From positions 1-41,525 of the forward strand of contig JADGQM010000003.1 of the NCBI GenBank assembly GCA_017881795.1: a stretch of 41,525 bases of DNA. Direction: 5' to 3'. The stretch's first letter is position 1. The number at the start of each line of letters is the position of its first letter. The position numbers were made by a program, and so were the translations under genes. Shown here piece by piece: positions 473 to 29,973 of this stretch. The stretch is from Syntrophobacteraceae bacterium (lineage in GTDB: Bacteria; Desulfobacterota; Syntrophobacteria; Syntrophobacterales; Syntrophobacteraceae). The notes beneath the pieces are model-generated. The model saw only the letters and a list, made by a program, of their open reading frames with translations. It did not search any database and was not told where the DNA came from.

Positions 473-1687
473 TCAATTCGATTTCGCGGCTGGTTGGGAC
501 GTATTCCCGGGTTCGGCGCCATCTTTCCGACCGGCATCAACAGGAACGGCCTTCACGGAAGCGCCGGGCCGCACTTTTTGCATCCCCTCGACGATCACCC
601 GCTCGCCGGATGCAAGACCTGATGAGACAAGCCATTGGTCGCCAATGGCACGATCGAGAGTGAGCATCCGCTGCTGGACCTTCCCTTCGGCGTCCACGAT
701 CAACACCGCGGGGTTGCCCTTTGGATCGCGTGACACGGTCTGCTGCGGAATGAGGATGGCCTGCTCATTGATGCCTTCCTTCACTACCGCCCGGACGAAC
801 ATGCCCGGCAGGAGAACTCCTTCCGGATTGGGAACGACAACCCTCAGGATGACTGACCCCGTAGTCGGGTCCACCGTAATGTCGCGAAACTGTAGTGTCC
901 CTTCCAATGGATAGAGGGTATTGTCTTCCAGGATGAGCTTGACCTTCTGCTGGTTTCTTCCGTTTTGATTGAGGCTGCCGTCCTCCAGGCGGCGCCTCAA
1001 GCGCAGCAGTTCGGTGGTGGATTGGGGCACATCCGCGTAAATGGGGTCCAGTTGTTGAATGGTTGACAGGGCTACCGGCTGATGCGCCGTCACGAGAGCG
1101 CCATCGGTCACGCTGGATCTGCCGATACGCCCGGAAATGGGCGCGGTAACCCGGGTATACCCCAGATTGATGCGGGCGGACTCCACCGCCGCCTTCCACA
1201 CTTCAACGTCCGCCTCGGCCTGTTTCAGAGCGGCGTCGGCGTCGTCGTAGTCCTGCCGGCTCACCGCTTTGTCGGCAAGCAATTCCTGATAGCGCTGCAT
1301 TCTCAACCGGATCGCCGGCCGATTCGCTTCGGCCCTGGCAAGGGAGGCCTTGGCATTGTCGAGAGCTGCCTGAAAGGGGGCCGGATCGATTTGATAGAGA
1401 ACCTGGCCGGCCTTGACCTCAGAACCTTCCTTAAACAGGCGCTTCTGGATGAGGCCATTGACCTGGGGTCGGATTTCCGCGACGAGGTAGGCAGAGGTAC
1501 GTCCAGGCAATTCGGTGGTCAGCTCGACCTGCTGCGGCTGCGTCGTCACCACAGCTACTTCCGGGACCGGGGGCGGAGGCGCAGATTGCGGCTGACGTTC
1601 GCAGCTTCCCAGCAAAACGCCGCCTGACAGAATGATCAAAAGCACAATGAGTTTAAGCGGTTTATTAACGGTTTTATGCAGTTGCAT
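473..1687 (-). CDS. RND efflux periplasmic adaptor subunit (AcrA/MexA family lipoprotein)
   Basis: Lipobox-like signal LLGSC, HlyD/biotinyl-lipoyl motif EIRPQVNGLIQKRLFKEGSEVKAGQVLYQIDPAPF, operonic with acrB-like gene. Start placed at 1687 after GGAGGT RBS (track ORF starts at 1753). Confidence 0.93.
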   Translation of the reverse strand: MQLHKTVNKPLKLIVLLIILSGGVLLGSCERQPQSAPPPPVPEVAVVTTQPQQVELTTELPGRTSAYLVAEIRPQVNGLIQKRLFKEGSEVKAGQVLYQIDPAPFQAALDNAKASLARAEANRPAIRLRMQRYQELLADKAVSRQDYDDADAALKQAEADVEVWKAAVESARINLGYTRVTAPISGRIGRSSVTDGALVTAHQPVALSTIQQLDPIYADVPQSTTELLRLRRRLEDGSLNQNGRNQQKVKLILEDNTLYPLEGTLQFRDITVDPTTGSVILRVVVPNPEGVLLPGMFVRAVVKEGINEQAILIPQQTVSRDPKGNPAVLIVDAEGKVQQRMLTLDRAIGDQWLVSSGLASGERVIVEGMQKVRPGASVKAVPVDAGRKDGAEPGNTSQPAAKSN

Positions 1688-1749
1688 CCGAGACCTCCAG
1701 AATATCCGGTTGGGATTGACGCATTCGGTTAGCAGAAACTCGATCCGGG

Positions 1750-2373
1750 TCACTGATCGAGCAGTCCTTTGAAGAGAATATTCAAAATGGTGTCCGGATC
1801 TTCCGGGTAGGGATGGCGTTCGGGTTCGTCGAGCCAGAGGAAAAGAAAGGCGTTGGTGATGCTATCGAGGGTAACGGCCAGGTGGTAAGGGTCGGCGATC
1901 TTTCTGAACCTTTTTCGCTTCATCCCGGTCTCAAAGATCGAGGCAAGGGTTTGCATGAATTCGCTGCGTCGTTCCCGGATCTCGGAATCGAATCCGGCCA
2001 TGACGTTGTAGCGCGCTCCATGGGTCTCGGCGAAATAGAGACGGATCATGGAGACGTTGGCACGAAAAACCTCGCCCTTGGCCTGGATGTAATTTCGCAG
2101 TCTTTGAATCTCATCACCCGGTTCTTCAATAGCCTTGGTGAGCGCTTGGTGGAACTTGTAGAACTGCTCCAGGATCAGGGCCTTGTAAAGGTCCTCCTTG
2201 TTGGTGAAGAACTTGTAGAGCGTGCCAATGGCAAACTCGGCCTTCTCCGCGATCTCGTGCATGGAAACGTTGCGATACCCCTTCTTCGAAAAGAGCTCGA
2301 GCGCGGCGGCCAGCATCTCTTGACGTTGCGCTAACTTCTCTCGTTCCCGCCTTGGGAGCTTCTTCTCTTCCAT
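1750..2373 (-). CDS. TetR/AcrR family transcriptional regulator
   Basis: N-terminal HTH ...MLAAALELFSKKGYRNVSMHEIAEKAEFAIGTLYKFFTNKEDLYKALI..., upstream of RND operon on the same strand. Confidence 0.93.
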   Translation of the reverse strand: MEEKKLPRREREKLAQRQEMLAAALELFSKKGYRNVSMHEIAEKAEFAIGTLYKFFTNKEDLYKALILEQFYKFHQALTKAIEEPGDEIQRLRNYIQAKGEVFRANVSMIRLYFAETHGARYNVMAGFDSEIRERRSEFMQTLASIFETGMKRKRFRKIADPYHLAVTLDSITNAFLFLWLDEPERHPYPEDPDTILNILFKGLLDQ

Positions 2374-2407
2374 CCTTTTACCTCTCGACCTGCAATATCA
2401 ATCCAAT

Positions 2408-2427
2408 ATGTGAATATGACGTCACAT
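2408..2427. promoter_or_regulatory. candidate TetR operator
   Basis: Perfect inverted repeat ATGTGA-ATATGACG-TCACAT, also containing the palindrome TGACGTCA, about 35 bp upstream of the tetR start. Confidence 0.45.
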
Positions 2428-2684
2428 TATATAACAGGACTTCGCATTGTAAAGAGGAATCTAAAGAAATTGTCGATCCGTGGCGGCGGTCTTTTGCCGA
2501 TCGTTCGCGTTTTCAGTAAAGCCCTTGGCGTGACGGCCTGGAGACATCCTTTTTGAAGAACTGATGGAAGGAGATCTTTGTGTCGCGTTTGAGAGGGTTA
2601 ATTCTTGGCAAATCCTTATCGTCGCCAGTTGCTGAACGAGGAATCGGTGCACAGAGACTGTGTGCGCTGGTGCCAGGATTTCAG

Positions 2685-4562
2685 CTAAAAGGCCTGTCCG
2701 ATGCTGAAATAAAACTGGTATGGATTGAAGAAGTTCTGGTTTGGAGGGTTGAGCTCATAACCGAAATCCAACCTCAAGGGACCAACCAGCGTAAGGTATC
2801 GGAGTCCGCAGCCCGCGGTGTAGCGAAGATTGCTCCAGACGACCTCAAAGCTTCGTTCATACACGTTTCCAAAATCCGTAAAGAGCACTCCCTCAAATGC
2901 TTTCGGGAGAGGAAAACGCCATTCCAGGCTGCCCTCAATCAGAGTCATGCCGCCAATGGGATTACCGGACTGGTCCAGAGGACCAAGCTTCTGATAGGGA
3001 TACCCCCGGACACTGTCCGCCCCTCCCGCAAAAAACCGTTTGAATATGGGAATATATGCCGTACTTTCAAGGGGTTGAATTCCACCCCATTTAAACTTTG
3101 CGGCCAGAACACCATATTTGCTGAGGGGCAAGTACCCCCTGCCTTCCAAAATCAGCTTGACATAGTCGACTTGGGAGCCCAGAGCACTCGAGGCCCACTC
3201 AACCGTGTGAAAAAAGCGCAATCCCTGGCGAGGATTAGCCGGCACATCCACATGCTCCCATGCGTTTCCCTGCAGGAGCGCCGACACAAAATAATTCTCG
3301 CGCTCCTGATTCTGCGGACCTTGAACGACCGGTTGCACAATCACGTTGGACAGGCGGTTCGCTTCGAGATCATACCCAATGGTGGATGCCAGCCTTTCGT
3401 TCCACTTGTAATTGAAAACAGGGTCCAAATATACCTTTTGATTCTCGAACGAAACCTGGTTCTCATGTTCTATCCCGCCATCCACGGTAAGATGGTCACG
3501 CGGTGTCAAAAAATAGGGCTGAAGGAGTCTTGCTTGCACCAACTGAACAATGGAGCTCGCCTTTGCATTGATCTGGAAGCGCCTGCCATCACCGAGGAAA
3601 TTTCGAATTTCCCACTGCAGCTGGCCGCGAAACTCATCCTCAGTGCCGTAACCAACCCCCACGCGGACCGTCTGTTTCTTGGCCTCCTTCACGAGAATCC
3701 GGACCGGCAGAGTGGTCGCGTTTCCTTCCGTGTTATCGACAGTTAAATCGACAACCTGAAAGAGCTCCAGGCCAAAAAGGCGCTGCTGGGTATCCTGGAT
3801 TTTCGAACCATTGAAGCGATCTCCGGGATGAAAAGTCACTTCGCGATAGATGACCTGATCCGCAACCTTCTCATTCCCTTCCAGAATGATCGGGCCGAAG
3901 GTGCATACCGGCCCCGTTTGAACCTCCACGGAGATCTCAGCCCGGTTGGTGCTCTTGTCGAGGCGCGCCTTCATGTCAACACGAGCCTTTGGATGACCCC
4001 AGTCCGAAAGATATCGCACCACGGCTTTCTCAATGTCCTGGTAAGCGGGAGTCGTGAATCGGCTGTCGACGTGTAACGGCATGACCCGGAGCAACTCACT
4101 GTGCCAGGGACCCGCCGGTTCGCCATCCACCAGGAGAGTCACTTCGGAAACCTGCATAGGAGGTCCTTCATTAACTTGAATTTCAACCAGGACCTCGTTT
4201 CCGAAGAAAGGAGTAACCTTGGGTGACTCAACGCTTGCATGATAGAACCCCTGACTGCGACAATATGTCTGGATCCGTTCCAGATCGTCGCTTAGGATTT
4301 TTTCATCGAGCGGAGCTTTGATGAACAGTCCGAAAGACTTTTCCTTGGTGGCAAGAAGCTTTTTTAGATCGCTGGATGAGACCGATTCGATTCCCTTGAA
4401 CTTTATGAAACGCACCTCATAGGCGGGAGATTGCGAGGGCTCTTCCTGCGTCCCTTGAGCCGGCGAAGTTGGTAAAACCAGGAGAAAAAGGGCCAGCCCA
4501 AACCGCAAGAGCAGATGGAGGCTGGGGTGTCCCTCTTTTGTCACCGACGTTATGGCGCACAC
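2685..4562 (-). CDS. Omp85/BamA-TamA family outer membrane protein with POTRA repeats
   Basis: Signal peptide, POTRA-like repeats (YEVRFIKFKGIESVSSSDLKKLL..., GPIILEGNEKVADQVIYREVTFHPGDRFNGSKI), C-terminal barrel with FFAGGADSVRGYPYQKLGP (VRGY/F motif) and terminal aromatic F. Confidence 0.9.
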   Translation of the reverse strand: MCAITSVTKEGHPSLHLLLRFGLALFLLVLPTSPAQGTQEEPSQSPAYEVRFIKFKGIESVSSSDLKKLLATKEKSFGLFIKAPLDEKILSDDLERIQTYCRSQGFYHASVESPKVTPFFGNEVLVEIQVNEGPPMQVSEVTLLVDGEPAGPWHSELLRVMPLHVDSRFTTPAYQDIEKAVVRYLSDWGHPKARVDMKARLDKSTNRAEISVEVQTGPVCTFGPIILEGNEKVADQVIYREVTFHPGDRFNGSKIQDTQQRLFGLELFQVVDLTVDNTEGNATTLPVRILVKEAKKQTVRVGVGYGTEDEFRGQLQWEIRNFLGDGRRFQINAKASSIVQLVQARLLQPYFLTPRDHLTVDGGIEHENQVSFENQKVYLDPVFNYKWNERLASTIGYDLEANRLSNVIVQPVVQGPQNQERENYFVSALLQGNAWEHVDVPANPRQGLRFFHTVEWASSALGSQVDYVKLILEGRGYLPLSKYGVLAAKFKWGGIQPLESTAYIPIFKRFFAGGADSVRGYPYQKLGPLDQSGNPIGGMTLIEGSLEWRFPLPKAFEGVLFTDFGNVYERSFEVVWSNLRYTAGCGLRYLTLVGPLRLDFGYELNPPNQNFFNPYQFYFSIGQAF

Positions 4563-4578
4563 TTCGTTCTACATTCTG

Positions 4579-5430
4579 TTACTGAAGCTGCTTCAATTTC
4601 TTCTGTGCAGCTTGGGCCTGAGGACTGTCGGGATACTTTTCCACCAACCGTTCGTAAAGAATCCGCGCTGCGGTGGCATCGCCCATCTGCTGGAATGCTG
4701 TCCCCTGCTTAAACAGCGCCTGCGGCACTTTGCTGCCCTTCGGGTAGCGTTCGATTACCTGCTGGTAGACCTCAACCGCATCTTGATAACGCTTTTCCGA
4801 GAGATAGCACTCCCCGATCGAATAGAGGGCGTTATCGGCCAACTGAGACTTGGGATACTTAGCGATGAAACTCTGATAATCTTTCCGCGCAGCATCAAAC
4901 TGTCCCTGCTGGAACGACTGAGTTGCTTTGTCAAAAAGCGCTTTTTCCGGGTCCTCCTTTTCCGGGATGGCGATATTCGGCTGTGGCGCGGGAGTCGTCT
5001 TGGCCACCGGGGGCGGCGTTGGACTGGTAACTGTGGCCAGACCGGGGGGGGCGGTCGGCGGGGCCGTCGTTATTGTAGGCGTCGCCGACGGCGAGGGCGC
5101 TGCCGGTGATTGGGGTGCTGATGCGGCAACGCGGGCCAATTGCTCGATTTTGCGATCTTCTTCCTCGACGCGGCCATTGAGGGCCCCCACCTTAAGCTGC
5201 AACTCGTCCAGGCGGGAATACAAGTCGGCTCTTTTCTGCGACTGGCCATCCATACCGTCGACGCGCCGTTCCAGTGCTTGAACCCGCTCGTACAGCATGG
5301 AAATATTCTGCTGGAGGGCGTTCATTTCATGGACTGAGGTTGAGGCACACCCTGTAAGCAAGCCCAAGACAGCCAGTGTGACTAATAGTAATTTGACTTC
5401 AATCCGCCTCAATTTATTCCCCACTTTCAT
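4579..5430 (-). CDS. cpoB: Tol-Pal system protein YbgF/CpoB (coiled-coil plus TPR)
   Basis: N-terminal lipoprotein-like signal, coiled coil, Pro-rich linker, then TPRs ALFDKATQSFQQGQFDAARKDYQSFIAKYPKSQLADNALYSIGECYLSEKRYQDAVEVYQQVIERYPKGSKVPQALFKQG; position 3' of pal. Confidence 0.92.
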   Translation of the reverse strand: MKVGNKLRRIEVKLLLVTLAVLGLLTGCASTSVHEMNALQQNISMLYERVQALERRVDGMDGQSQKRADLYSRLDELQLKVGALNGRVEEEDRKIEQLARVAASAPQSPAAPSPSATPTITTAPPTAPPGLATVTSPTPPPVAKTTPAPQPNIAIPEKEDPEKALFDKATQSFQQGQFDAARKDYQSFIAKYPKSQLADNALYSIGECYLSEKRYQDAVEVYQQVIERYPKGSKVPQALFKQGTAFQQMGDATAARILYERLVEKYPDSPQAQAAQKKLKQLQ

Positions 5431-5458
5431 AAACTCTCCCTTCCTCATCCCGAGTATT

Positions 5459-5487
5459 GGATGTCGGATGTCGGATGTCGGATGTCG
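5459..5487. repeat. tandem heptamer (GGATGTC)x4
   Basis: ggatgtcggatgtcggatgtcggatgtcg read directly in the cpoB-pal intergenic region. Confidence 0.85.
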
Positions 5488-5574
5488 AGGGTCGGACTGG
5501 GAATTCCAAACAGGGTTATCCTGGATTCTATGGTGCTCCTCATCCTTTGGCGTCTCTTCCTCAACCGGTTTCTC

Positions 5575-6153
5575 TTAATGATTCAAAACAAAGTGATCTC
5601 TTCGATTCTTTGCCCAGGCGGCTTCATCATGGCCTGTGGCAGCCGGGCGCTCTTTACCGTAGCTGATGGTCGTGAGATTCGTACGGTTGACTCCCGAATT
5701 GCTGATGTATTGCAGCGCGCTGTTCGCCCGGCGCTCCCCGAGCGCCAAATTATATTCCGTCGTTCCGCGTTCATCGCAATGACCTTCGATCGTCACTTTG
5801 GCCTTTGGGTAACGTTTGATGAAAGCAACCTTTTCATCCAGAATTCGCTTTGCCGGTTCGCTCAACACATAAGCATCATAGTCAAAATAGATGTCTTCAT
5901 TTTCAAACTTTTGAGATTTGGCAAGGAACTCCTGTTTTTCCTGTTCTGAGCCAATCCCAAGTTCCCGCCACCTGGCGTCATCCAATCCTGCGCCCCCCGC
6001 TCCCCCAGGTCCCCCCGTTCCTAAACCTTCCGACGGTCCGCCAGTCCCAGCACCAAAACCAGGTTGAGGGGGCACGGTCTGCTTTGCGCAAGCAAACCCT
6101 CCAACCATAAGAGCGAGAATCAAGAACATTCGAACAAGCGAATCACACCTCAT
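5575..6153 (-). CDS. pal: peptidoglycan-associated lipoprotein Pal (OmpA-like)
   Basis: Lipobox VGGFAC; EDIYFDYDAYVLSEPAKRILDEKVAFIKRYPKAKVTIEGHCDERGTTEYNLALGERRANSALQYISNSGV. Start set at 6153 by GAGGAGG RBS. Confidence 0.95.
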   Translation of the reverse strand: MRCDSLVRMFLILALMVGGFACAKQTVPPQPGFGAGTGGPSEGLGTGGPGGAGGAGLDDARWRELGIGSEQEKQEFLAKSQKFENEDIYFDYDAYVLSEPAKRILDEKVAFIKRYPKAKVTIEGHCDERGTTEYNLALGERRANSALQYISNSGVNRTNLTTISYGKERPAATGHDEAAWAKNRRDHFVLNH

Positions 6154-6296
6154 TTTCATCCTCCTCAATGTCACGTGGGTTAATCTGGAAACACAACCTT
6201 TAGGATCTTTGGATTTTTCACAACAAAACGGCTCTTCGACATGTTGCGGCCGATTACTCTCAGCGAAGAACCGAGAACGAGTAACCAGGATTATTT

Positions 6297-7631
6297 TCAA
6301 CGTCCACTCGCTCTTGGTGACCAATCGGGAAGCTCCTGCCCACTGCCGCTTCGAGTGAGGCGTCTAGCTCCGGTCCCATTGGTCTGCAGAATCCAGATGG
6401 CAGAACCGCCTTCCCGGGTTGAACTGAAAGCCAGCATGCGGCCGTCCGGGGACCACGTGGGATCTTCATTACTTCCCTCACCGTGCGTGAGTTGGCGCGC
6501 ATCGCTTCCATCCGGTCGGATGATGGCGATGTTGTGGCGTCCCCCAACTAGGCTGGTATAGGCGATCCAATCCCCTTTGGGGCTCCACGATGGCGCAGTA
6601 TTGTAATTTCCGCTGAAAGTGACGCGCCGCTTCTGACCGCTGGCGACGTCAAAGACGTAAACCTGAGGATTCCCGGTTTCATCCGATACGTAGGCCAGGC
6701 GTTTACCGTCAGGCGACCAGCCGGGGGAAACATTAATCGAAAAGCCTTGAACCAACTTCTGGATGATCTCGCCCGACGACGATATCAGATAAATATTGGG
6801 ATTTCCATCCTTGGAGAGAGTAACCGCCAGTTCATTGCTGCCGGGCCTCCAGGCCGGGGAGATGTTCAGGCCCGGATATCCGCATATGAGGCGCTGCGCC
6901 CCGTCCATAAGATTGACGGCGTACACTTTGGTGCCGCCTTCCTTGTAACTGACATAGGCCAACTGCGTTCCATTCGAGTTCCAGGCCGGCGACAAATTGA
7001 GGCTGTTGTCGCGAGTGACCTGAACCGGATTGCTACCATCGAAATCCACAACATAGATCTCTTTCCCTTTGCCCTGAGCCTGTACATATGCAATTTTGGT
7101 GTCAAATACGCCCCTCTCTCCCGTGAGAGCGTAGAGAATTTCATCCGCAAAACGATGGATCATCAACCGCCAGTTCCGTGTCTCTCCTTCATACACTTTC
7201 CCAAAAACCATGCGGGAACCCACGACATCGAAAAGGCGCCCCTCGATCTTCAAAGTCGGACCTTGGACTTGATATGCTCCGCGCGCCAGGAAGTCAGCAC
7301 CCAGTCTCCGCCAGTCCGGAAACTTGATATCCGCTGCGGTCAATCCCATCGCCTGAGGATCTTCCAAGAAGCCTTTCGGATCGAGCGGACGAAAGAGCCC
7401 CGAGTAATCGAGATCGTTTGCCAGGGTCTCGCCCATGTCCCGGGCCAGTTGCGTCTGTTCCGCTGTCTGACGCTTAAAATCAGGGATGGCGATGGGTATT
7501 CTTTCAAAACTAGGTTGGGTAATATCGATGTACACCCGCTGCGCCGAGACGGTTTCACCCCATACCAAAGTAATCGCGCCAACGATAAGGAGGCAATTCC
7601 ACCAGACAATCAACCGCTTCTTCAGCAACAT
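6297..7631 (-). CDS. tolB: Tol-Pal system beta-propeller protein TolB
   Basis: N-terminal TolB domain followed by WD40-like PD40 repeats (NVSPGWSPDGKRLAYVSDETGNPQVYVFDVASGQ, NTAPSWSPKGDWIAYTS). Confidence 0.95.
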   Translation of the reverse strand: MLLKKRLIVWWNCLLIVGAITLVWGETVSAQRVYIDITQPSFERIPIAIPDFKRQTAEQTQLARDMGETLANDLDYSGLFRPLDPKGFLEDPQAMGLTAADIKFPDWRRLGADFLARGAYQVQGPTLKIEGRLFDVVGSRMVFGKVYEGETRNWRLMIHRFADEILYALTGERGVFDTKIAYVQAQGKGKEIYVVDFDGSNPVQVTRDNSLNLSPAWNSNGTQLAYVSYKEGGTKVYAVNLMDGAQRLICGYPGLNISPAWRPGSNELAVTLSKDGNPNIYLISSSGEIIQKLVQGFSINVSPGWSPDGKRLAYVSDETGNPQVYVFDVASGQKRRVTFSGNYNTAPSWSPKGDWIAYTSLVGGRHNIAIIRPDGSDARQLTHGEGSNEDPTWSPDGRMLAFSSTREGGSAIWILQTNGTGARRLTRSGSGQELPDWSPRASGR

Positions 7632-7661
7632 TTTCTTGACAATCCTCCGTCACAATGATGG

Positions 7662-8657
7662 TCATGAAAGGTCTTCAGGGCGGAATCGGAGCCCGATTTC
7701 TTCTTGAGCAGGGCTGTAAATCGCTGGAAAAGGCGGGAGCGGTTCGGCTTTCCGAACCGCTCTCCTGGCCGATTCATCGTAAACCTCATTGCCGGAGCTC
7801 TTCTCCACCCGCATGTCCAACACCTTCCCATCGCGTCTGAGCACGATAATGAGCACCGTCTCCAAGCGCTGAGCCTTGAGAAACTCAGGAAGAGCCCACT
7901 GTCTACGAATCGCATTCCAGATTTCCGTATAGTAAAGCCGACGAGCCAGTCCAACCTGCGCTCCGTCAGCCCCTCCTGGCGGCCCCCCCTGCTGAACTCC
8001 CTTTTCTCCAGCCCCCTTGGCAGCACCGTCACGAGATCCCGTAGCGCCCTTCTCCCCGCTCTGCCCACCCCCGGGTGCACTCTGCCCTTCTTTCTTCTCT
8101 GTAGGTGCACCCTGCCCTTCCTTTTTCTCTGTATTTGAGGGCGCGGGTGAGCCCTTTTCGCCTCCCTCTTTGGCGCCTTGAGCGACTTGCACCCGTTCGG
8201 GCGTTTTCGGTTTGGGAATGAGCTTCTCCACGCTCTTCTCGACGGCAGCCGCGCTCTGCGAGTTGGTCGAGAATTTCGGGACTTCAGGCGCCTCCATCTT
8301 TTTTATTTCAGCCTCGGGCCTGGCATTCGGTTCATCCAATTGCAGCCTTTTAACCGGGACCATTGGACCAGACTTGGCGCGATTCGCGGAAGATGTCTTT
8401 TGATCATCCTGGCTTTTCGGCTCCGTGGCCCCTTTGACCGTGGTTCCTTTAGGAGCAGTGTCCTTCCCCAGACCGATGTCCTGCGTGGTGACCAGGTTAA
8501 CCGTCCAGAAGGGATTGGCCAGCACTGTCTTGGAAGGGCTGAAGGGGCCCACGATCGCAAGGACCACGATGAGGGAGTGAACCAGAAATGAACCCCCAAC
8601 TCCCGTCCAAACATCCTCTTTCGACAATTTTCGTGATGAAAAGTCTAAGGATTCCAA
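7662..8657 (-). CDS. tolA: TolA/TonB C-terminal domain protein, TolA of the tol-pal cluster
   Basis: Single N-terminal TM, long low-complexity linker, C-terminal YYTEIWNAIRRQWALPEFLKAQRLETVLIIVLRRDGKVLDMRVEKSSGNEVYDESARRAVRKAEPLPPFP; between tolR and tolB. Confidence 0.88.
   Translation of the reverse strand: MESLDFSSRKLSKEDVWTGVGGSFLVHSLIVVLAIVGPFSPSKTVLANPFWTVNLVTTQDIGLGKDTAPKGTTVKGATEPKSQDDQKTSSANRAKSGPMVPVKRLQLDEPNARPEAEIKKMEAPEVPKFSTNSQSAAAVEKSVEKLIPKPKTPERVQVAQGAKEGGEKGSPAPSNTEKKEGQGAPTEKKEGQSAPGGGQSGEKGATGSRDGAAKGAGEKGVQQGGPPGGADGAQVGLARRLYYTEIWNAIRRQWALPEFLKAQRLETVLIIVLRRDGKVLDMRVEKSSGNEVYDESARRAVRKAEPLPPFPAIYSPAQEEIGLRFRPEDLS
8074..8133. repeat. 30-bp in-frame tandem duplication inside tolA linker
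   Basis: ggtgcactctgcccttctttcttctctgta / ggtgcaccctgcccttcctttttctctgta; encodes duplicated EKKEGQxAP. Confidence 0.75.
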
Positions 8658-8703
8658 GAAAATAACCCTCTAAACCTGATTCCTCAAAACGTTCCTGGAA
8701 GCA

Positions 8704-9147
8704 TCATGGCGATGGGGTCTTTGATGAGCTTTTCAGTGGTTCTGTAACCATTCCGATCTGATCGATTCCGGCCTCGCGTATCACCCCCATCACTTGCACG
8801 ACAAAGCCATAAGGGATCTTCTCGTCAGCCCGCAAGAAAACACCCTGACGGCGGTTCTGATTCTGGTAGATCGATAACAACTTGGATCCGAGCGCGTCCA
8901 GGTCAACGGGATATTCATTGATGAAAATTTTTCGATCCTGGTTGACAGTCACCATCAAGCGCTCTTCCTCCGTGGGGATTGCCGGCGCCGAAGCTTGAGG
9001 AAGGTTCACATCAATTCCTTGCGTCATCATCGGAGCAGTTACCATAAAGATAATCAACAATACAAGCATGACGTCTACAAACGGAGTCACATTGATCTCC
9101 GAGACCATCTTCCCATTTTGATTTCTTCCGCCTGCTTGCATCCCCAT
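8704..9147 (-). CDS. tolR: ExbD/TolR family protein
   Basis: MVSEINVTPFVDVMLVLLIIFMVTAPMMTQGIDVNLPQA: canonical TolR/ExbD motif. Confidence 0.95.
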   Translation of the reverse strand: MGMQAGGRNQNGKMVSEINVTPFVDVMLVLLIIFMVTAPMMTQGIDVNLPQASAPAIPTEEERLMVTVNQDRKIFINEYPVDLDALGSKLLSIYQNQNRRQGVFLRADEKIPYGFVVQVMGVIREAGIDQIGMVTEPLKSSSKTPSP

Positions 9148-9162
9148 CGACGATCTCCAACA

Positions 9163-9211
9163 TTGGCTCTTGGCGTTTGGCTCTTGGCTCTTGGTTCTTG
9201 GCGTTTGGCCT
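9163..9211. repeat. cluster of degenerate TTGGCTC/TTGGCGT heptamers (about 7 units)
   Basis: ttggctc ttggcgt ttggctc ttggctc ttggttc ttggcgt ttggcct read directly in the tolQ-tolR gap. Confidence 0.8.
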
Positions 9212-9224
9212 ATGAAGAGCTCTC

Positions 9225-10040
9225 CTAATCCTGCATCGCCACCCGTGGTGGTTCCACCGGGAATTCATCTTGCCGGCCCCGACGCATCAGATCGCGCTTG
9301 AGCATATTCAGAAAATCCGCAGAGAAGTGGCTCATTTCATTTTCAATCATGCGGATTTGGTTAGCAAAATGGTTATAGGCGACGACCGCCGGGATCGCCG
9401 CGGCCAAACCCATCGCGGTGGCCACCAGGGCTTCGGAAATGCCGGGAGCCACTACGGCCAGGTTGGCCGCTCCCTTGAGGCCAATATCCTGGAAGCTTGT
9501 CATGATACCCCAGACCGTCCCAAAGAGGCCGATAAAGGGAGCCGTGCTACCCGTGGTGGCAAGAAGCGGCAAAAAGCGCTCAAACCGCTGGCGCTCGGCC
9601 ATCATTCCACCCTGTATGGCACGGTCCACATTTTCGAGCAGCACTTCGGGATTCACCTTCAGTTCCTGAATGTTCTTAGTCTCTAAAGATTTGCTGAGGC
9701 GATTCAGTTCCAGATAACCCACTCGGAAGAGTTGCGCCAAATGACTTTCTTCCAGGACCTGGCTATCCCGGTACAAGGCGGCGTAGTTCTTGCGCTGTCG
9801 AAAGAGATCAATGAACTGAACGGATTCCTTCTTCGCTCTTCTGAGCAGCCGTGCTTTCAGCAGAATCACAAACCAGCAGGCGAGTGACAGGACGAGTAAC
9901 ACCGCCAGTACGAATTTTACCATGGGGCCGGCGTGCCCAACCATCTCCCAGATCCCGTTTCCGCCCCGCTGATAGGGGGCGTTCACGGGTTCAGAAGCCG
10001 CATAAGCAAATGCCGTAAGGAACGAAATATTGCATGTCAT
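9225..10040 (-). CDS. tolQ: MotA/TolQ/ExbB proton channel family protein
   Basis: LPLLATTGSTAPFIGLFGTVWGIMTSFQDIGLKGAANLAVVAPGISEALVATAMGLAAAIPAVVAYNHF. Confidence 0.95.
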   Translation of the reverse strand: MTCNISFLTAFAYAASEPVNAPYQRGGNGIWEMVGHAGPMVKFVLAVLLVLSLACWFVILLKARLLRRAKKESVQFIDLFRQRKNYAALYRDSQVLEESHLAQLFRVGYLELNRLSKSLETKNIQELKVNPEVLLENVDRAIQGGMMAERQRFERFLPLLATTGSTAPFIGLFGTVWGIMTSFQDIGLKGAANLAVVAPGISEALVATAMGLAAAIPAVVAYNHFANQIRMIENEMSHFSADFLNMLKRDLMRRGRQDEFPVEPPRVAMQD

Positions 10041-10052
10041 CTTTTCGAATCC

Positions 10053-10799
10053 CTAAGAATTATAACTCTCATCTAATGCTGCCAGGATGCCGGGCAAGGC
10101 GATGCCCGCAGGCTCGGCAATGCGGAAGTCCGTCAGGTGATGGGATAGTTCTGATGCCTTGGGATTGATTTCAAGCAGGAACGCACCATTTTGCTTCGCA
10201 AGCCGTGGAATCTGCGATGCCGGGGCAACTGAAGCTGAAGTCCCGACAATCAGCATGAAGTCGCACTTGCCCGCCGCCGCCATGGCCTGGTGATAGGCAT
10301 CACCAGAGATCGGCTCACCAAAGAACACCAAATCAGGTCGTAGCGCGGTGCCGCAAGGGCACCGTGGGGGCAGACTCGCCAACGAAACGCTCTCGCGAGG
10401 GAACCTCTGGCCGCACGAATCACACCGCAGCGTCCGGTTGTTCCCATGAAATTCGACCACTTTCGTGGTTCCGGCACGTTGATGCAGGCTGTCCACATTC
10501 TGGGTAATGACGAGCCTGAGTATACCCCGCTTTTCGAGCTCGGCCAGGGTCCGATGGGCAGGATTGGGATCGGCGCTCGCAAGGACTTGGTCGAGTTCCG
10601 CCAGCATCTTCCATACCTTTGCCGGATTGGCTCGAAAAGACTCGATGGTGCCAAATTCACTCGGATCATATTTCGACCACAGCCCTCCGGCACTCCGAAA
10701 ATCAGGGACGCCACTCTCAACCGAGATTCCCGCTCCGGTCAAAGCAACCGCATAACTACTTCGAGAAATTCGCTCGGCCATCCGTCGGTAATCATCCAT
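10053..10799 (-). CDS. cobB: SIR2 family NAD-dependent protein deacylase
   Basis: ALTGAGISVESGVPDFRSAGGLW, TQNVDSLHQRAGT, Zn ligands CDSCGQ...CPCG, LIVGTSASVAPASQIP. Confidence 0.93.
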   Translation of the reverse strand: MDDYRRMAERISRSSYAVALTGAGISVESGVPDFRSAGGLWSKYDPSEFGTIESFRANPAKVWKMLAELDQVLASADPNPAHRTLAELEKRGILRLVITQNVDSLHQRAGTTKVVEFHGNNRTLRCDSCGQRFPRESVSLASLPPRCPCGTALRPDLVFFGEPISGDAYHQAMAAAGKCDFMLIVGTSASVAPASQIPRLAKQNGAFLLEINPKASELSHHLTDFRIAEPAGIALPGILAALDESYNS

Positions 10800-12247: not shown

Positions 12248-12314
12248 CCACGAAGAGCACGAAGAAAACGAAGGACACGAAGTGATTTCTTCGTGCTCTT
12301 CGTGTCCTTCGTGG
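12248..12314. repeat. CACGAAG-type palindromic intergenic repeat, copy A
   Basis: ccacgaagagcacgaagaaaacgaaggacacgaag...cttcgtgctcttcgtgtccttcgtgg; 9-nt periodicity inside each arm, arms inverted. Confidence 0.9.
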
Positions 12315-12510
12315 TTTCAAATACGGTCAACATGAGAGCAAGTTATTCTTGGACAGACCCTAAGTTGGAAGAATTCTCCACCAACCACGCTTCTGCACCA
12401 TCCATTTGTATCCCTTGGTGCACCCCGAAGGCAACGCAGACGTTAACGGTTTTTTTGAGGCGGCGACTTTACCCTCCAAACATGAGCCTTTGCAGAAGGA
12501 AGAGCTTCCC

Positions 12511-14412
12511 ATGATTACCAGTTACTGGGCGGACGATTACGTCAAGAAGCGACGCTCTGCCAAACAGGCGATTGAGGCCATCAAGCCCGGTCAAAGGATT
12601 TTTATAGGAACTGGGTGTGGCGAGCCGCAGCATCTGATACAGGAACTGGCTTCTCAGGCAACCAACTTCACCGACATTGAGGTCGTCCGGCTCTTGAGCC
12701 TCGAAACGGCGCCGCTCACCCTGATTGCCAGTGAAACTTCCCAGAACAGCTTTACGATCAGGTCCTTCTATTCGGGATCAACCATTTCTGAGCCTCTTGC
12801 CAGGAACCGCCGCTTTTTTACCCCGGTTAACCTCTCCGCTGTGCCGCATCTCTTTCACAGCAGGCAGATTCCCATTCACGTGGCACTCATCCAGGTTTCT
12901 CCATCAGACGATTTCGGGTGGATGAGCCTCGGGATCTCTGTGGATATTACCATGGCGGCAGCATTCTCGGCAGATCTGGTCGTCGCTCAGGTGAATCCAA
13001 AGATGCCCAGAGTTCTGGGCCGCAGTTTCATCCATGTCAATGATGTGGACATCATTGTTGAGCATGAAGAAGAACTGCTGACCATCGAAGCTCACGCTAT
13101 CTTTGAGTCAGCCCGGTTGATTGCCAGACATATCACCAAACTCATTGATGACGGTTCCACGCTCCATCTGGGTTTGGGAGCAACGGCTGGGGCGATATTG
13201 CACGCGCTTTCCGACAAGAACGACCTCGGTGTGCATTCAAGGTTCATCACTGACGGGATGATGCAACTTGTGGCCAAAGGAGTAATAACCAATCGTAAGA
13301 AAGGCTTAAATGAGGGGAAGTGCGTGGCGAGCAGCGCCATCGGCACGACTAATCTTTATGAGTTTCTGCACGACAATCCGAGCATCGAATTCCACCCTTC
13401 GGATTACGTGAATAACCCCACCGTTATTGCCAGCCACAATAAAATGATCTCCATTCACGTTGCCACGATCATGGACTTAACCGGCCAGGTCGCTGCCGAC
13501 GCTCGGCCGCAGAACCATTTTTCGGGGGTGACCGGAATGCTTGACTTTGTGAGGGGCGCAACTCGATCCCCTCAAGGAAAATCCATTATCTTGCTTCCGT
13601 CCACGTCGCGGGATGGCAAGACCAGCAGGATTATGCCAACGCTCGACAGCACTGCTGTGGTCATCCCTCGAAGCGACGTGTACTATGTCGTGAGTGAATT
13701 TGGAGCAGTCAATCTCTTTGGCAAAAGTCTTCAGGAACGGGCCGTGGCCATGATCAGTCTCGCCCATCCTGATTTTAGGGACGAGCTTTTCTTTAATGCC
13801 AAGAAACTGGGCCTGATCGGCGCCGAGCGCAGTCTCAAGGAGTCCATCCACGCGGTCTATCCTCTCAAATACGAAGAGATCATAAAAGTCAGCGGGCAGG
13901 AGGTCACGATCCGGCCGGCAAAGTCGGTGGATGAGCGCCGGATCCAGGAACACTTCTATAACCTCGATGCCGACGACATTGTCTCAAGGTTCTTCCACCG
14001 CAAGACCAGCTTCATTCGGAACGATGTCGTATCCATGTATCAAATCGATTATGTGCATGAGATGACCATCGTGGCGGTGGTCGGCGAATTCGGTTTTGGC
14101 AAGATCATCGCTTTGGGAGGGTATGCTCTCGATCCATCCACGAATATCGCAGAGGTCGCTTTCTCGGTCTCAAGAGAATGGCAAGGCAAAGGTTTATCTA
14201 AGATCATTTTAAAAAAACTAACAGAAGCCGCCCGCGACAGTGGGATTGCCGGCTTTACCGCCTACACCTCCATGCAAAACCGAGGCATGGCTAAGCTTTT
14301 TAACAGCTTGCCCTATAAAATTCAGACCATCTTCGAAGATGGCATATTGACGATGACCTGCCGGTTTGATGATCCCGATGCTCAGCCAACAGCACCAGCC
14401 GTCAAAGACTAA
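12511..14412 (+). CDS. acetyl-CoA hydrolase/transferase-like domain fused to C-terminal GNAT acetyltransferase domain
   Basis: CoA-transferase region GLGATAGAILHAL...DYVNNPTVIASHNKMISIHVATIMDLTGQVAAD...FSGVTGMLDFVRGA...DVYYVVSEFGAVNLFGKSLQERA; GNAT region VTIRPAKSVDERRIQEHFYNL...AEVAFSVSREWQGKGLSKIILKKLTEAARDSGIAGFTAYT. Start at 12511 after GGAAGAG. Confidence 0.92.
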   Translation: MITSYWADDYVKKRRSAKQAIEAIKPGQRIFIGTGCGEPQHLIQELASQATNFTDIEVVRLLSLETAPLTLIASETSQNSFTIRSFYSGSTISEPLARNRRFFTPVNLSAVPHLFHSRQIPIHVALIQVSPSDDFGWMSLGISVDITMAAAFSADLVVAQVNPKMPRVLGRSFIHVNDVDIIVEHEEELLTIEAHAIFESARLIARHITKLIDDGSTLHLGLGATAGAILHALSDKNDLGVHSRFITDGMMQLVAKGVITNRKKGLNEGKCVASSAIGTTNLYEFLHDNPSIEFHPSDYVNNPTVIASHNKMISIHVATIMDLTGQVAADARPQNHFSGVTGMLDFVRGATRSPQGKSIILLPSTSRDGKTSRIMPTLDSTAVVIPRSDVYYVVSEFGAVNLFGKSLQERAVAMISLAHPDFRDELFFNAKKLGLIGAERSLKESIHAVYPLKYEEIIKVSGQEVTIRPAKSVDERRIQEHFYNLDADDIVSRFFHRKTSFIRNDVVSMYQIDYVHEMTIVAVVGEFGFGKIIALGGYALDPSTNIAEVAFSVSREWQGKGLSKIILKKLTEAARDSGIAGFTAYTSMQNRGMAKLFNSLPYKIQTIFEDGILTMTCRFDDPDAQPTAPAVKD

Positions 14413-14457
14413 GGGCCGTCTGGAAATAACTTGCTCTCATTTTGATCTTATTTCAAA

Positions 14458-14524
14458 CCACGAAGGGCACGAAGATCTCGAAGGGACCACTTCGCGTCCT
14501 TCGAGATCTTCGTGCCCTTCGTGG
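14458..14524. repeat. CACGAAG-type palindromic intergenic repeat, copy B (convergent gene ends)
   Basis: ccacgaagggcacgaagatctcgaaggga / tccttcgagatcttcgtgcccttcgtgg: near-perfect 28-bp inverted arms. Confidence 0.9.
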
Positions 14525-14552
14525 TGAAAGGTGATGAGCTGAGCCCGGGCGC

Positions 14553-15245
14553 TCACCCAGAGCTCTCTCCCGATTTCTTCGGCAACTGGTCCAGGCTCCA
14601 TTGCATGGGATTGAGTAAGGTAAACCCGAGACCTTCAAGCTTCGCTTTGACGCGGGCTACATTGCCGGTGAGCAGGTAGGGGAAAACGGCGCGCTTGCCC
14701 TCTTCCCAATAACGCGCAACGAGGATCGAGCCAAAGGGTATGCGCTCCTCGGTGATCGCATCGACAATCCTTTTCATCTGCCCGACCTTGTCATCGGCCA
14801 GAATGCACAGCAAGGTTCCCGGTTCTTCAATTCCCAACACGTTAATGAAGGCCCGCATGAGGTCGCGGACTGAGATGATGCCGATGAGTCTATGCTGCTG
14901 GTCGAGCACGGGAAAGGCTCCCACCTTTGTTCTTTGCATCAGTAACAGGGCATCCTCAAGGGTATTCATGGGAGAAATGGCCACCACATTCCTGGTCATA
15001 ATATCCTTCACTTTGATCTGGGCAATCCGCTCTGTTTCCTTCGCCACGGCCTCTTCACTCGATAGAACTGAAGGCATGGCACTGCGAATATCCCGATCCG
15101 TGACGATCCCGACCAGTCTGCGGTCCTGTTCAGTAACCGGAAGATGGCGGATATGGTGCTGGCGCATTAACGCCGACGCCTCGGCAATGTTGGTCTCGGG
15201 GTCGATGGTGAGAACATCCCTCGTCATGGATTTGTCAATGAACAT
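14553..15245 (-). CDS. CBS-pair protein with C-terminal ACT-like region (AcuB-like)
   Basis: Two CBS motifs (MTRDVLTIDPETNIAEASALMRQHHIRHLPVTEQDRRLVGIVTDRDIR; MTRNVVAISPMNTLEDALLLMQRTKVGAFPVLDQQHRLIGIISVRDLM) and GTLLCILADDKVGQMKRIVDAITEERI. Confidence 0.88.
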   Translation of the reverse strand: MFIDKSMTRDVLTIDPETNIAEASALMRQHHIRHLPVTEQDRRLVGIVTDRDIRSAMPSVLSSEEAVAKETERIAQIKVKDIMTRNVVAISPMNTLEDALLLMQRTKVGAFPVLDQQHRLIGIISVRDLMRAFINVLGIEEPGTLLCILADDKVGQMKRIVDAITEERIPFGSILVARYWEEGKRAVFPYLLTGNVARVKAKLEGLGFTLLNPMQWSLDQLPKKSGESSG

Positions 15246-15278: not shown

Positions 15279-16244
15279 TCACTTACCAAGCAGGATTTCC
15301 ACGTGGTTTTTGATCAACTCGGGTAAGCGTTTCAATGAATAGCCACCTTCGAGTATCGAGATCAAGCGGCCGTTGGCATGCTCATCGGCAAGTTCGACCA
15401 GGCTTTGCATGATCCAGGAGTAGCCCTCGGTGGACAGATTGATGCTTGACATATCATCGTCCGCGTGAGCGTCAAAACCGGCCGAAAGCAATATCACTTC
15501 GGGTTTGAAGGAAGCAAATGCCGGGACCAAGTCCCTTGGCAACAGCTCCTGGTAGGCTTCATCCCCCTGTCCGGGAAGCACCGGGGAATTGAGCGTGAAA
15601 CCATACCCCTCGTCGATGCCTCGCTCGAACTCACGGCCCGTGCCAGGGAAAGAGAAGGATGGGTGTTCATGGATGGAATAGTAGAACACCGTGGGGTCAC
15701 CGATAAAAACCTGCTGCGTTCCATTGCCGTGATGCGCGTCAAAGTCAACAATGCCGACGCGCTGAATTCCCCACTGCTCTTGCAGGTATTTTGCCGCAAT
15801 CGCCACGTTGTTGAAATAACAGAAACCCAGGGCGCGGTTTGCTTCGGCGTGATGCCCCGGGGGTCTCACTGCACAGAAAGCATTGTCGAGCTGACCCTCC
15901 ATGAGGAGATCGATGGTTTTGAGGATGCCTCCGACCGCCAGGAGCGCAATGTCATAACTGTCTTTGCAGATCTGATTGTCAGGATGGTCAAATTCGCCGA
16001 GTTCAAGCATGCAGGCCTCTTCGAAACGAAAGATGTGCCTGGGAGAATGGACCCGTTCAATCCATTTCAACCGCGCTGGGGTCGCTTGAATCAAGGTGAG
16101 TTGAGCCAGTAGTCCGGCTTCCTCCAGAGCGCGGTAGGCGAACGTAAGCCGGTCAGAATGCTCGGGATGTCCCGGGCTTGTGCAGTGGTTAGAAAACCGT
16201 TCGTCATACAAAAAACCTGTTCTTCGCATTAGCTGGTTCCTCAT
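15279..16244 (-). CDS. histone deacetylase/AcuC family protein
   Basis: CAVRPPGHHAEANRALGFCYFNNVAIAAKYL, VGIVDFDAHHGNGTQQVF, ILLSAGFDAHADDDMS: intact class I/II HDAC metal and catalytic motifs. Confidence 0.94.
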   Translation of the reverse strand: MRNQLMRRTGFLYDERFSNHCTSPGHPEHSDRLTFAYRALEEAGLLAQLTLIQATPARLKWIERVHSPRHIFRFEEACMLELGEFDHPDNQICKDSYDIALLAVGGILKTIDLLMEGQLDNAFCAVRPPGHHAEANRALGFCYFNNVAIAAKYLQEQWGIQRVGIVDFDAHHGNGTQQVFIGDPTVFYYSIHEHPSFSFPGTGREFERGIDEGYGFTLNSPVLPGQGDEAYQELLPRDLVPAFASFKPEVILLSAGFDAHADDDMSSINLSTEGYSWIMQSLVELADEHANGRLISILEGGYSLKRLPELIKNHVEILLGK

Positions 16245-16747: not shown

Positions 16748-18706
16748 TTATCCCTTGACGGCGGCCAGGCGATTCTTGATGAGGTCCTCAACCACCGCGG
16801 GTTCCGCGAGGGTGCTGGTATCGCCGAGATCAGAGATCTCATTGGCAGCGATTTTGCGGAGAATCCGGCGCATGATTTTTCCCGACCGCGTCTTGGGCAA
16901 GCTGGGCGCCCACTGGATAAAGTCGGGTGAGGCGATGGCTCCAATTTCCTTCCTCACCCACTGAATGAGCTCTTTTCGCAGCTCATCCGAAGGCTGTCGA
17001 TCAGCATTCAAGGTGACATAAGCATAAATGCCCTGGCCCTTGATCTCGTGCGGAAATCCGACGACGGCCGCTTCCGCCACGGTGGCATGAGCAACCAAAG
17101 CGCTCTCGACCTCTGCAGTCCCGAGGCGATGTCCGGATACGTTGATGACGTCATCGACCCGACCCGTGATCCAGTAATAGCCGTCTTCATCCCGGCGCGC
17201 GCCGTCACCGGTAAAGTAAAGCCCCTTGTAAGCACTGAAATAGGTTTGTTTAAAACGTTCATGATCGCCATATATCGTCCGCAGCATTGCCGGCCAGGAA
17301 TCGGTGATAACCAGATTGCCCTTTCCTGGCCCCTCGAGGAGGTTGCCCTCGGCATCCATGATAGCCGGCTTCAAACCAAAATAAGGCCTGGTCGCGGAAC
17401 CGGGTTTGAGCGCGGTGGCGCCGGGGAGAGGAGTGATCAGAATACCACCGGTTTCCGTCTGCCACCAGGTATCGACAATGGGACAACGCTTTTCGCCGAC
17501 GACATTGTAGTACCAGAGCCAGGCTTCCGGGTTAATGGGCTCCCCCACGGTGCCGAGGAGTCGCAACGACTTGCGCGAGGTCTTCTTGACCGGCTCGTCG
17601 CCCTGGCGCATGAGAGCTCTAATGGCTGTCGGAGCGGTGTAGATGATGTTGACCTTGTGTTTGTCAACCACGTTCCAGAAGCGAGACCAATCCGGGTAAT
17701 TGGGCACGCCTTCGAACATGATCGAAGTCGCTCCATTGGCCAGAGGGCCGTAGACGATATAGCTGTGTCCCGTTACCCAGCCGATGTCGGCGGTGCACCA
17801 ATAGATATCTCCGTCGTGATAGTCGAAAACGTGCTGGTGGCTCATTGCAGTGTAAACCAAATAACCCCCGGTGGTATGCAGCACCCCCTTAGGTTTTCCA
17901 GTGGAACCGGAGGTATAGAGGATATAGAGCGGGTCCTCGGCATCCATCTCTTCCGGCGGACAGTCGGCGGATGCATCCTGCATAAGTTTACCCCATTCGA
18001 GATCTCGCCCCTCCTTCCACGGAACCTGGCCGCCCGTATGCTTCACCACGACCACCTTTTCGACAAAGGGGCACTTTTCAACGGCTTCGTCGGTATTCGC
18101 TTTCAAGGGGATCGGCTTACCCCCGCGCAACCCTTCATCGGCGGTGATCACCACCTTGCCCTGGCAGTCCTGGATGCGCCCCGCGAGAGAATCGGGTGAG
18201 AAGCCGCCGAACACGATCGAGTGGACCACGCCGATGCGGGTACAGGCAAGCATGGCCACGGCCAACTCCGGAATCATCGGTAGATAGATCGTGACCCGGT
18301 CACCCCGCTTCAGCCCCAATGACTTGAGGACGTTGGCAAACTTGCTCACATCTTCATGCAACTGGCGATAGGTAATGGACTTGCTCACCGCGGGGTCGTC
18401 CCCTTCCCAGATGATGGCAATCTGATCGGCGCGCTTGGCGAGATGACGATCCAGGCAATTGTAACTGACGTTCAGCTTGCCGTCGGTGAACCACTTGATT
18501 CGCACATCATCCTCGAAGGAACCCTCTTTCACCTTCGTCCAGGGCTTGAACCAATCGAGGCGTTTAGCCTGTTCTCCCCAGAAGCCTTCGGGGTCTTTGA
18601 CCGACTGCTCATACATCTGCAGGTATTTGTCGTTGTCTACCCAAGCTGACTTTGCCCAGGATTCCGGGACGGGAAACAATTGATTTGACATAGCTTCCTC
18701 CTTCAT
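16748..18706 (-). CDS. acs: acetate--CoA ligase (AMP-forming acetyl-CoA synthetase)
   Basis: [46 protein letters not shown], and the regulatory acetylation-site motif [17 protein letters not shown]. Confidence 0.97.
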
Positions 18707-29899: not shown

Positions 29900-29973
29900 C
29901 CACGAAGAATGCAAAGGAATACTTGCTCAATAATCTCCGTGGTCTTCTTCGTGCTCTTCGTGTCCTTCGTGGT
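29900..29973. repeat. CACGAAG-type palindromic intergenic repeat, copy C (degenerate left arm)
   Basis: ccacgaagaatgcaaaggaat...tcttcgtgctcttcgtgtccttcgtgg; right arm identical in pattern to copy A right arm. Confidence 0.85.

Follow-up and report, generated by a model that had tools for sequence, protein, structure and literature searches.

The window analyzed here, a 41,525-nucleotide stretch of DNA from a Syntrophobacteraceae bacterium, encodes a protein in which a region resembling a CoA-transferase is joined to a GNAT acetyltransferase domain. It raises the question of what role an apparent metabolic enzyme, with an arginine in place of its catalytic glutamate, might play when tethered to an acetyltransferase. 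A preliminary description of the locus had read the protein as a Pat-like acetyltransferase with a dead CoA enzyme as its sensory half.

Domain architecture of the fusion protein

The reading frame is uninterrupted over its entire length and starts with an ATG preceded by AAGGAAGAG (Table 1). Pfam profiles recover AcetylCoA_hydro (residues 9-192) and AcetylCoA_hyd_C (278-428) domains followed by a GNAT domain (511-597), confirming the domain order originally described, and phmmer aligns the first 436 residues end to end with solved 4-hydroxybutyrate CoA-transferases (9vag, E=3.5e-105; also 3eh7, 2oas, 3gk7 and 3d3u). These matches place the N-terminal half in the homologous two-domain fold of the class-I CoA-transferases (4HB-CoAT/Cat1). 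Structure prediction from a six-sequence alignment gave a mean pLDDT of 41, too low for use. No curated NCBIfam equivalog covers the fusion, since its scores against the models for butyryl-CoA:acetate CoA-transferase (267 bits, cut-off 675) and Pat (44 bits, cut-off 460) both fall far under the cut-offs. Such proteins carry the NCBI name 'bifunctional acetyl-CoA hydrolase/transferase/GNAT', and the architecture is thus already familiar to annotators; our search, which covered open-access papers, found none describing a CoA-transferase-GNAT fusion or a function for it.

Table 1. Positions of the fusion gene, its halves and altered residues, and neighboring genes in the window
Feature	Positions	Strand	Basis
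CoA-transferase-GNAT fusion, 633 aa	12511..14412	+	ORF, Pfam, NCBIfam, match to solved structures
CoA-transferase half, residues 8-436; homologue of 4-hydroxybutyrate CoA-transferases	12532..13818	+	Pfam, solved structures
His219, at Gln213 of stand-alone enzymes (3GK7 numbering; QxGhG loop)	13165..13167	+	alignment to 3GK7
Arg244 (AGG), at catalytic Glu238 of stand-alone enzymes (3GK7 numbering)	13240..13242	+	alignment to 3GK7
Met343, at CoA-contacting Gln337 of stand-alone enzymes	13537..13539	+	alignment to 3GK7; contact per PMC11659651
GNAT half, Pat type, about residues 460-617	13888..14361	+	Pfam, structure relatives, alignment
AcuB homologue, two CBS domains and C-terminal ACT-like part	14553..15245	-	5awe, E=6e-28; 9s4w, E=6e-27
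Class-II-like deacetylase of the HDAC family, with HDAC6 and HdaH as nearest solved relatives	15279..16244	-	solved-structure comparison
AMP-forming acetyl-CoA synthetase (Acs), with K610 (16877-16879) as the lysine of PKTRSGK	16748..18706	-	
Sir2/CobB-type deacylase	10053..10799	-	

Among solved structures the GNAT half comes closest to 9it0/9isq (E about 1e-15), which are protein acetyltransferases, and to the GNAT domain of S. lividans PatA (4u5y/4nxy); this bears out its description as Pat-like. Glu548 (14152-14154) aligns with the conserved glutamate of the Pat GNATs and a QGKGL motif occupies residues 558-562. Among 153 aligned fused proteins the Glu548 position holds Glu in 144 and Asp in seven, and the motif-A glycine (Gly561) is present in 151. 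As in type-I Pat, the C-terminus is therefore a Pat-type GNAT with both the catalytic glutamate and motif A.

Inverted repeat arms of 115 nt, 81% complementary, lie on both sides of the gene (12248-12362 and 14410-14524). Within the downstream arm, 14457-14484 pairs perfectly with 14498-14525 in a 28-bp hairpin of the CGAAGGGCACGAAG type, a related further copy of which is found at 29947-29969.

Altered residues in the CoA-transferase site

Alignment to the crystallized enzyme 3GK7 places its catalytic E238 on Arg244, as the preliminary description had proposed, and shows the site to be more altered than was seen then: the glutamine of the QxGhG loop (Gln213) is replaced by His219 and that of the GGQ motif (Gln337) by Met343. 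In 4HB-CoAT, Ile216 and Gln337 hydrogen-bond CoA and the QxGhG loop is flexible (PMC11659651); I216 of 3GK7 aligns with L222 of the fusion. The CoA-binding regions had been called well kept, and DYVNNP, FSGVTGMLDF and SEFGAVNLFGKSLQERA are indeed all present; this is only partly right, because the stand-alone enzymes read FSGxGGQ where the fusion has FSGVTGM. The AGG codon of Arg244 is two base changes away from CAG, the Gln codon usual in relatives, and likewise from GAG (Glu), so that one sequencing error does not account for it. The intact frame and the low dN/dS in relatives (see below) further rule out such an error, as they do a pseudogene.

To place these changes in the family, homologues were gathered from five named genomes, from 56 belonging to the class and from 198 belonging to the phylum. 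Matches at E<=1e-90 occur in 89 of the 198 phylum genomes, and most of them cover both halves. The catalytic glutamate and the Gln213 and Gln337 equivalents are all present in 17 of 17 stand-alone enzymes, of which five have solved structures, one comes from the same order and 11 were drawn from plasmid records in several phyla. At the catalytic position, 62 of the 153 fused proteins have Glu, 42 have Gln and 34 have Asp; the remainder have Pro (six), Arg, Gly, His or Val (two each) or Leu (one). In a close set of 41 homologues (identity 52% or more) the residue is Gln in 33, Glu in three, Arg and Pro in two each, and Leu in one. The counts leave out two seemingly stand-alone proteins with Gln (L030, L145), whose genes are fused ones cut off at a contig edge. 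Conservation of the arginine among fused proteins, which the preliminary description had held up for checking, is thus ruled out: Gln is the rule of the close clade, other fused proteins have Asp or Glu, and Arg arose twice, as AGG in the window and as CGT in L163. The open frame of the latter (L163:5491-9234, + strand) runs far upstream, giving about 1,178 aa from the first start. In the class-level set, one relative genome (G042) was hit 12 times by the CoA-transferase query; several of these hits are stand-alone and several have internal stops.

In a tree of the CoA-transferase half, computed by a quick method with the catalytic column removed beforehand and containing some long branches, a well supported branch (SH-aLRT 99) parts fused from stand-alone proteins. 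The catalytic position requires 14 state changes on this tree, and the arginines of the window and L163 are separate events within a mostly-Gln clade. Some fused proteins have a fully intact active site (e.g. L174-L178), other fused branches keep Glu together with Gln213 and GGQ, and another has Asp. From this distribution we infer that the fusion event preceded the decay or rebuilding of the CoA-transferase site, which took several directions. In the close clade, further residues invariant in stand-alone enzymes are replaced: Gly62 by Glu65 (40/41), Phe81 by Tyr87 (41/41), Asp117 by His, Gly327 by Pro and Gly335 by Thr/Ser.

In close pairs of Glu-less homologues, dN/dS of the CoA-transferase half (0.012/0.26, 0.021/0.65, 0.037/0.24 and 0.060/0.73) is well below 1 and resembles that of the GNAT half. 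This purifying selection indicates that the half has been retained for something. It might be a mere scaffold for oligomerization or docking of Acs, with no sensing role, attached to a GNAT that still acetylates Acs. Such a role would suit the loss of the CoA-contacting Gln337 throughout the close clade (to M, I, V, T and others) and has a parallel in Pat, whose N-terminal domain also matters to structural integrity (PMC8556138); we nevertheless regard it as unlikely, given that the fold signature is mostly retained, with 70 of the 97 positions invariant among stand-alone enzymes, glycine loop included, identical in the fusion.

A bifunctional protein whose CoA-transferase half is still catalytic without Glu238, for instance in intramolecular CoA transfer or acyl-CoA hydrolysis, appears quite improbable. 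Loss of the glutamate by itself is no proof of inactivity, since ThnP, a member of the same family with Gly at this position, converts its substrate as an active intramolecular CoA-transferase (PMC11659651), and the fused branches that keep Glu with Gln213 and GGQ point the same way. The near-invariant, clade-specific Glu65 is the only candidate for a carboxylate that could in principle have moved; a catalytic role does not follow, because the stand-alone protein L226 has a Glu at this position as well as the catalytic one. Against continued catalysis stand the loss of both the QxGhG and GGQ glutamines from the fusion, the drift of the catalytic position among Gln, Arg, Pro, Leu and Glu inside the clade, and the inactivity of both the E46A and E46S variants of CtfAB (PMC12400318).

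In one large fused branch (L063, L064, L070, L085, L092 and others) Asp replaces the catalytic Glu throughout. As the E46D change converts CtfAB to an acyl-CoA hydrolase (PMC12400318), these homologues may, by analogy, be hydrolase-GNAT proteins, which would favor retained catalysis in that branch.

Gene neighborhoods and the connection to Acs

The fusion gene is convergent with a group coding for the AcuB homologue, the HDAC-family deacetylase and Acs, across a gap of 140 bp. The AcuB homologue gives a nearly full-length alignment with solved AcuB proteins and its gene starts 33 bp after that of the HDAC, which is 'AcuC-like' by position and not by subfamily, its nearest solved relatives being HDAC6 and HdaH. 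The acs gene, whose product has the PKTRSGK motif, is 2.3 kb from the fusion; all three genes lie within 4.3 kb of it, as in an AcuA-type neighborhood, and together with the Sir2 gene they fall inside about 8.7 kb. The Sir2 gene adjoins a Tol-Pal type cluster (ExbB/TolQ, ExbD/TolR, TonB-like, TolB, OmpA and TPR genes; 473-10040), and the order TolQ-Sir2-transglycosylase is kept in relatives.

The connection to Acs recurs in relatives and is stronger than the preliminary description knew: 1) of the 13 nearest relatives, eight have the fusion directly beside acs and in the same direction, with a spacing of 255 to about 570 bp, and on its far side Sir2 and transglycosylase genes are conserved (L049, L051, L052, L053, L056, L057); 2) the order fusion>acs>HDAC is found in three members of the close set (L165, L166, L167); 3) in a separate Glu-type fused branch (L189, L200, L203) the fusion overlaps or adjoins an ADP-forming acyl-CoA synthetase gene, with AcuB- and HDAC-like genes near; 4) other acyl-CoA synthetases come after the fusion in L122, L194, L196 and L207. 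These counts partly reflect shared descent of the nearest relatives; the arrangements of L165-L167 and of L189/L200/L203 are distinct. Many close homologues lie away from acs, which is within 5 kb in 10 of the 36 having enough flank. Glu is kept in three of the 41 close homologues, one of which (L053) is beside acs; deadness of the site is thus not strictly bound to the Acs link.

The window's genome, a draft of 486 contigs and 92.6% completeness, contains one Acs that we could find, and a search of it with the type-I Pat of a relative (L051) found no type-I Pat: apart from the GNAT of the fusion itself, all matches were acyl-CoA synthetases without a GNAT. Replacement of type-I Pat by the fusion is not universal, since L051 and L056 have a type-I Pat as well as a fusion near acs.

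That the GNAT acylates some other protein or a small molecule, its linkage to acs reflecting shared acetate regulation only, we consider very improbable. This would fit the fact that most fused proteins as a whole are not encoded near acs, and that three close homologues (L153, L154, L162) adjoin AcsV, the Wood-Ljungdahl corrinoid activator. The Asp- and GGY-type branches have unrelated housekeeping surroundings, among LGT/MobB or MinC/MinD genes, and hence some fused proteins may have a target other than Acs. Opposed to it are the genes for Acs, HDAC, AcuB and ADP-forming ligases, which turn up next to the fusion repeatedly and independently, and the specifically Pat-like character of the GNAT half.

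A predicted acetyltransferase of Acs and its known counterparts

Pat and AcuA shut Acs down by acetylating its catalytic lysine, and AcuC and sirtuins (SrtN) take the acetyl group off again (PMC11910552, PMC8556138); AcuB senses the cellular energy charge (PMC13121692). A counterpart of each of these parts appears to be encoded in the window, with the fusion as the acetyltransferase. In light of these contextual connections, a role in Acs acetylation is likely, and on balance we favor the fusion being a lysine acetyltransferase directed at Acs, comparable to Pat and AcuA in function and different in architecture, whose regulatory half is a retired CoA-transferase. It is probably an off-switch of an unstudied type for acetate metabolism. 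Its acetyltransferase activity, substrate, ligand binding, acyl-CoA sensing and direction of regulation are what we infer from homology and gene context. The GNAT half would carry out the acetylation chemistry; the N-terminal half, apparently descended from a CoA-transferase and still so folded, though short of the catalytic glutamate and two CoA-site glutamines, would, judging from its sequence, probably bind acyl-CoA and so regulate or position the GNAT. The nearby HDAC- and Sir2-type deacetylases could undo the acetyl mark, and the AcuB-like CBS-ACT protein might couple this reversal to the adenylate energy charge. The core of the preliminary reading thus survives in its Glu-to-Arg change, Pat-type GNAT and Acs linkage, without the arginine as a family signature.

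The five-type scheme of bacterial GNAT acetyltransferases has a CoA-transferase half in none of its types (PMC8556138). More tentatively, and with the odds somewhat against it, the fused proteins might constitute a sixth architecture, widespread in the phylum, in which a repeatedly retired CoA-transferase (its Glu giving way to Gln, Asp, Arg, Pro or another residue) serves as the acyl-CoA sensor of an Acs-silencing Pat-type GNAT and replaces type-I Pat in some genomes. If so, two unrelated enzymes, the acyl-CoA synthetase of Pat and the CoA-transferase of the fusion, would independently have become regulatory halves of acetyltransferases, hinting at a general design rule whereby an acyl-CoA enzyme, once retired, lends itself directly to sensing acyl-CoA. 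Many anaerobes that may lack type-I Pat would thereby gain an identified Acs acetyltransferase, and a common fusion, of which we found no role described, would gain a function. The natural Glu/Asp/Gln/Arg/Pro series at one catalytic position makes the step from enzyme to sensor testable in family members.

Of the systems already described, type-I Pat (Salmonella Pat and E. coli PatZ) is similarly a large protein combining an inactive CoA-enzyme half with a homologous C-terminal GNAT, and shares the implied target Acs; its regulatory half is an NDP-forming acyl-CoA synthetase, whereas that of the fusion is a class-I CoA-transferase relative (Pfam AcetylCoA_hydro domains). SlPatA, AAPat and MtPat (type II and III GNATs) likewise join a Pat-family GNAT to a sensor, their sensors being acyl-CoA synthetase, ACT or cAMP domains. 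The 4-hydroxybutyrate/butyryl-CoA CoA-transferases of the Cat1 group (3GK7, RipA) match residues 8-436 in sequence, fold, glycine loop and C-terminal signature, from which the fusion departs by its Arg, His and Met for the catalytic Glu, QxGhG Gln and GGQ Gln, and by the attached GNAT. ThnP, a Cat1-group protein of anaerobic naphthalene degradation, also lacks the catalytic glutamate (Gly238); in contrast to the probably inactive half of the fusion it is an active intramolecular CoA-transferase, and its paper mentions no GNAT or acetyltransferase part. The setting resembles that of Bacillus AcuA with AcuB, AcuC and SrtN, where an acetyltransferase is likewise found amid Acs, AcuB, an HDAC-type deacetylase and a sirtuin. 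Unlike the AcuABC setting, the window has a class-II-like HDAC, and AcuA is a GNAT-only (type IV) protein, whereas the fusion carries a CoA-transferase half of about 430 aa.
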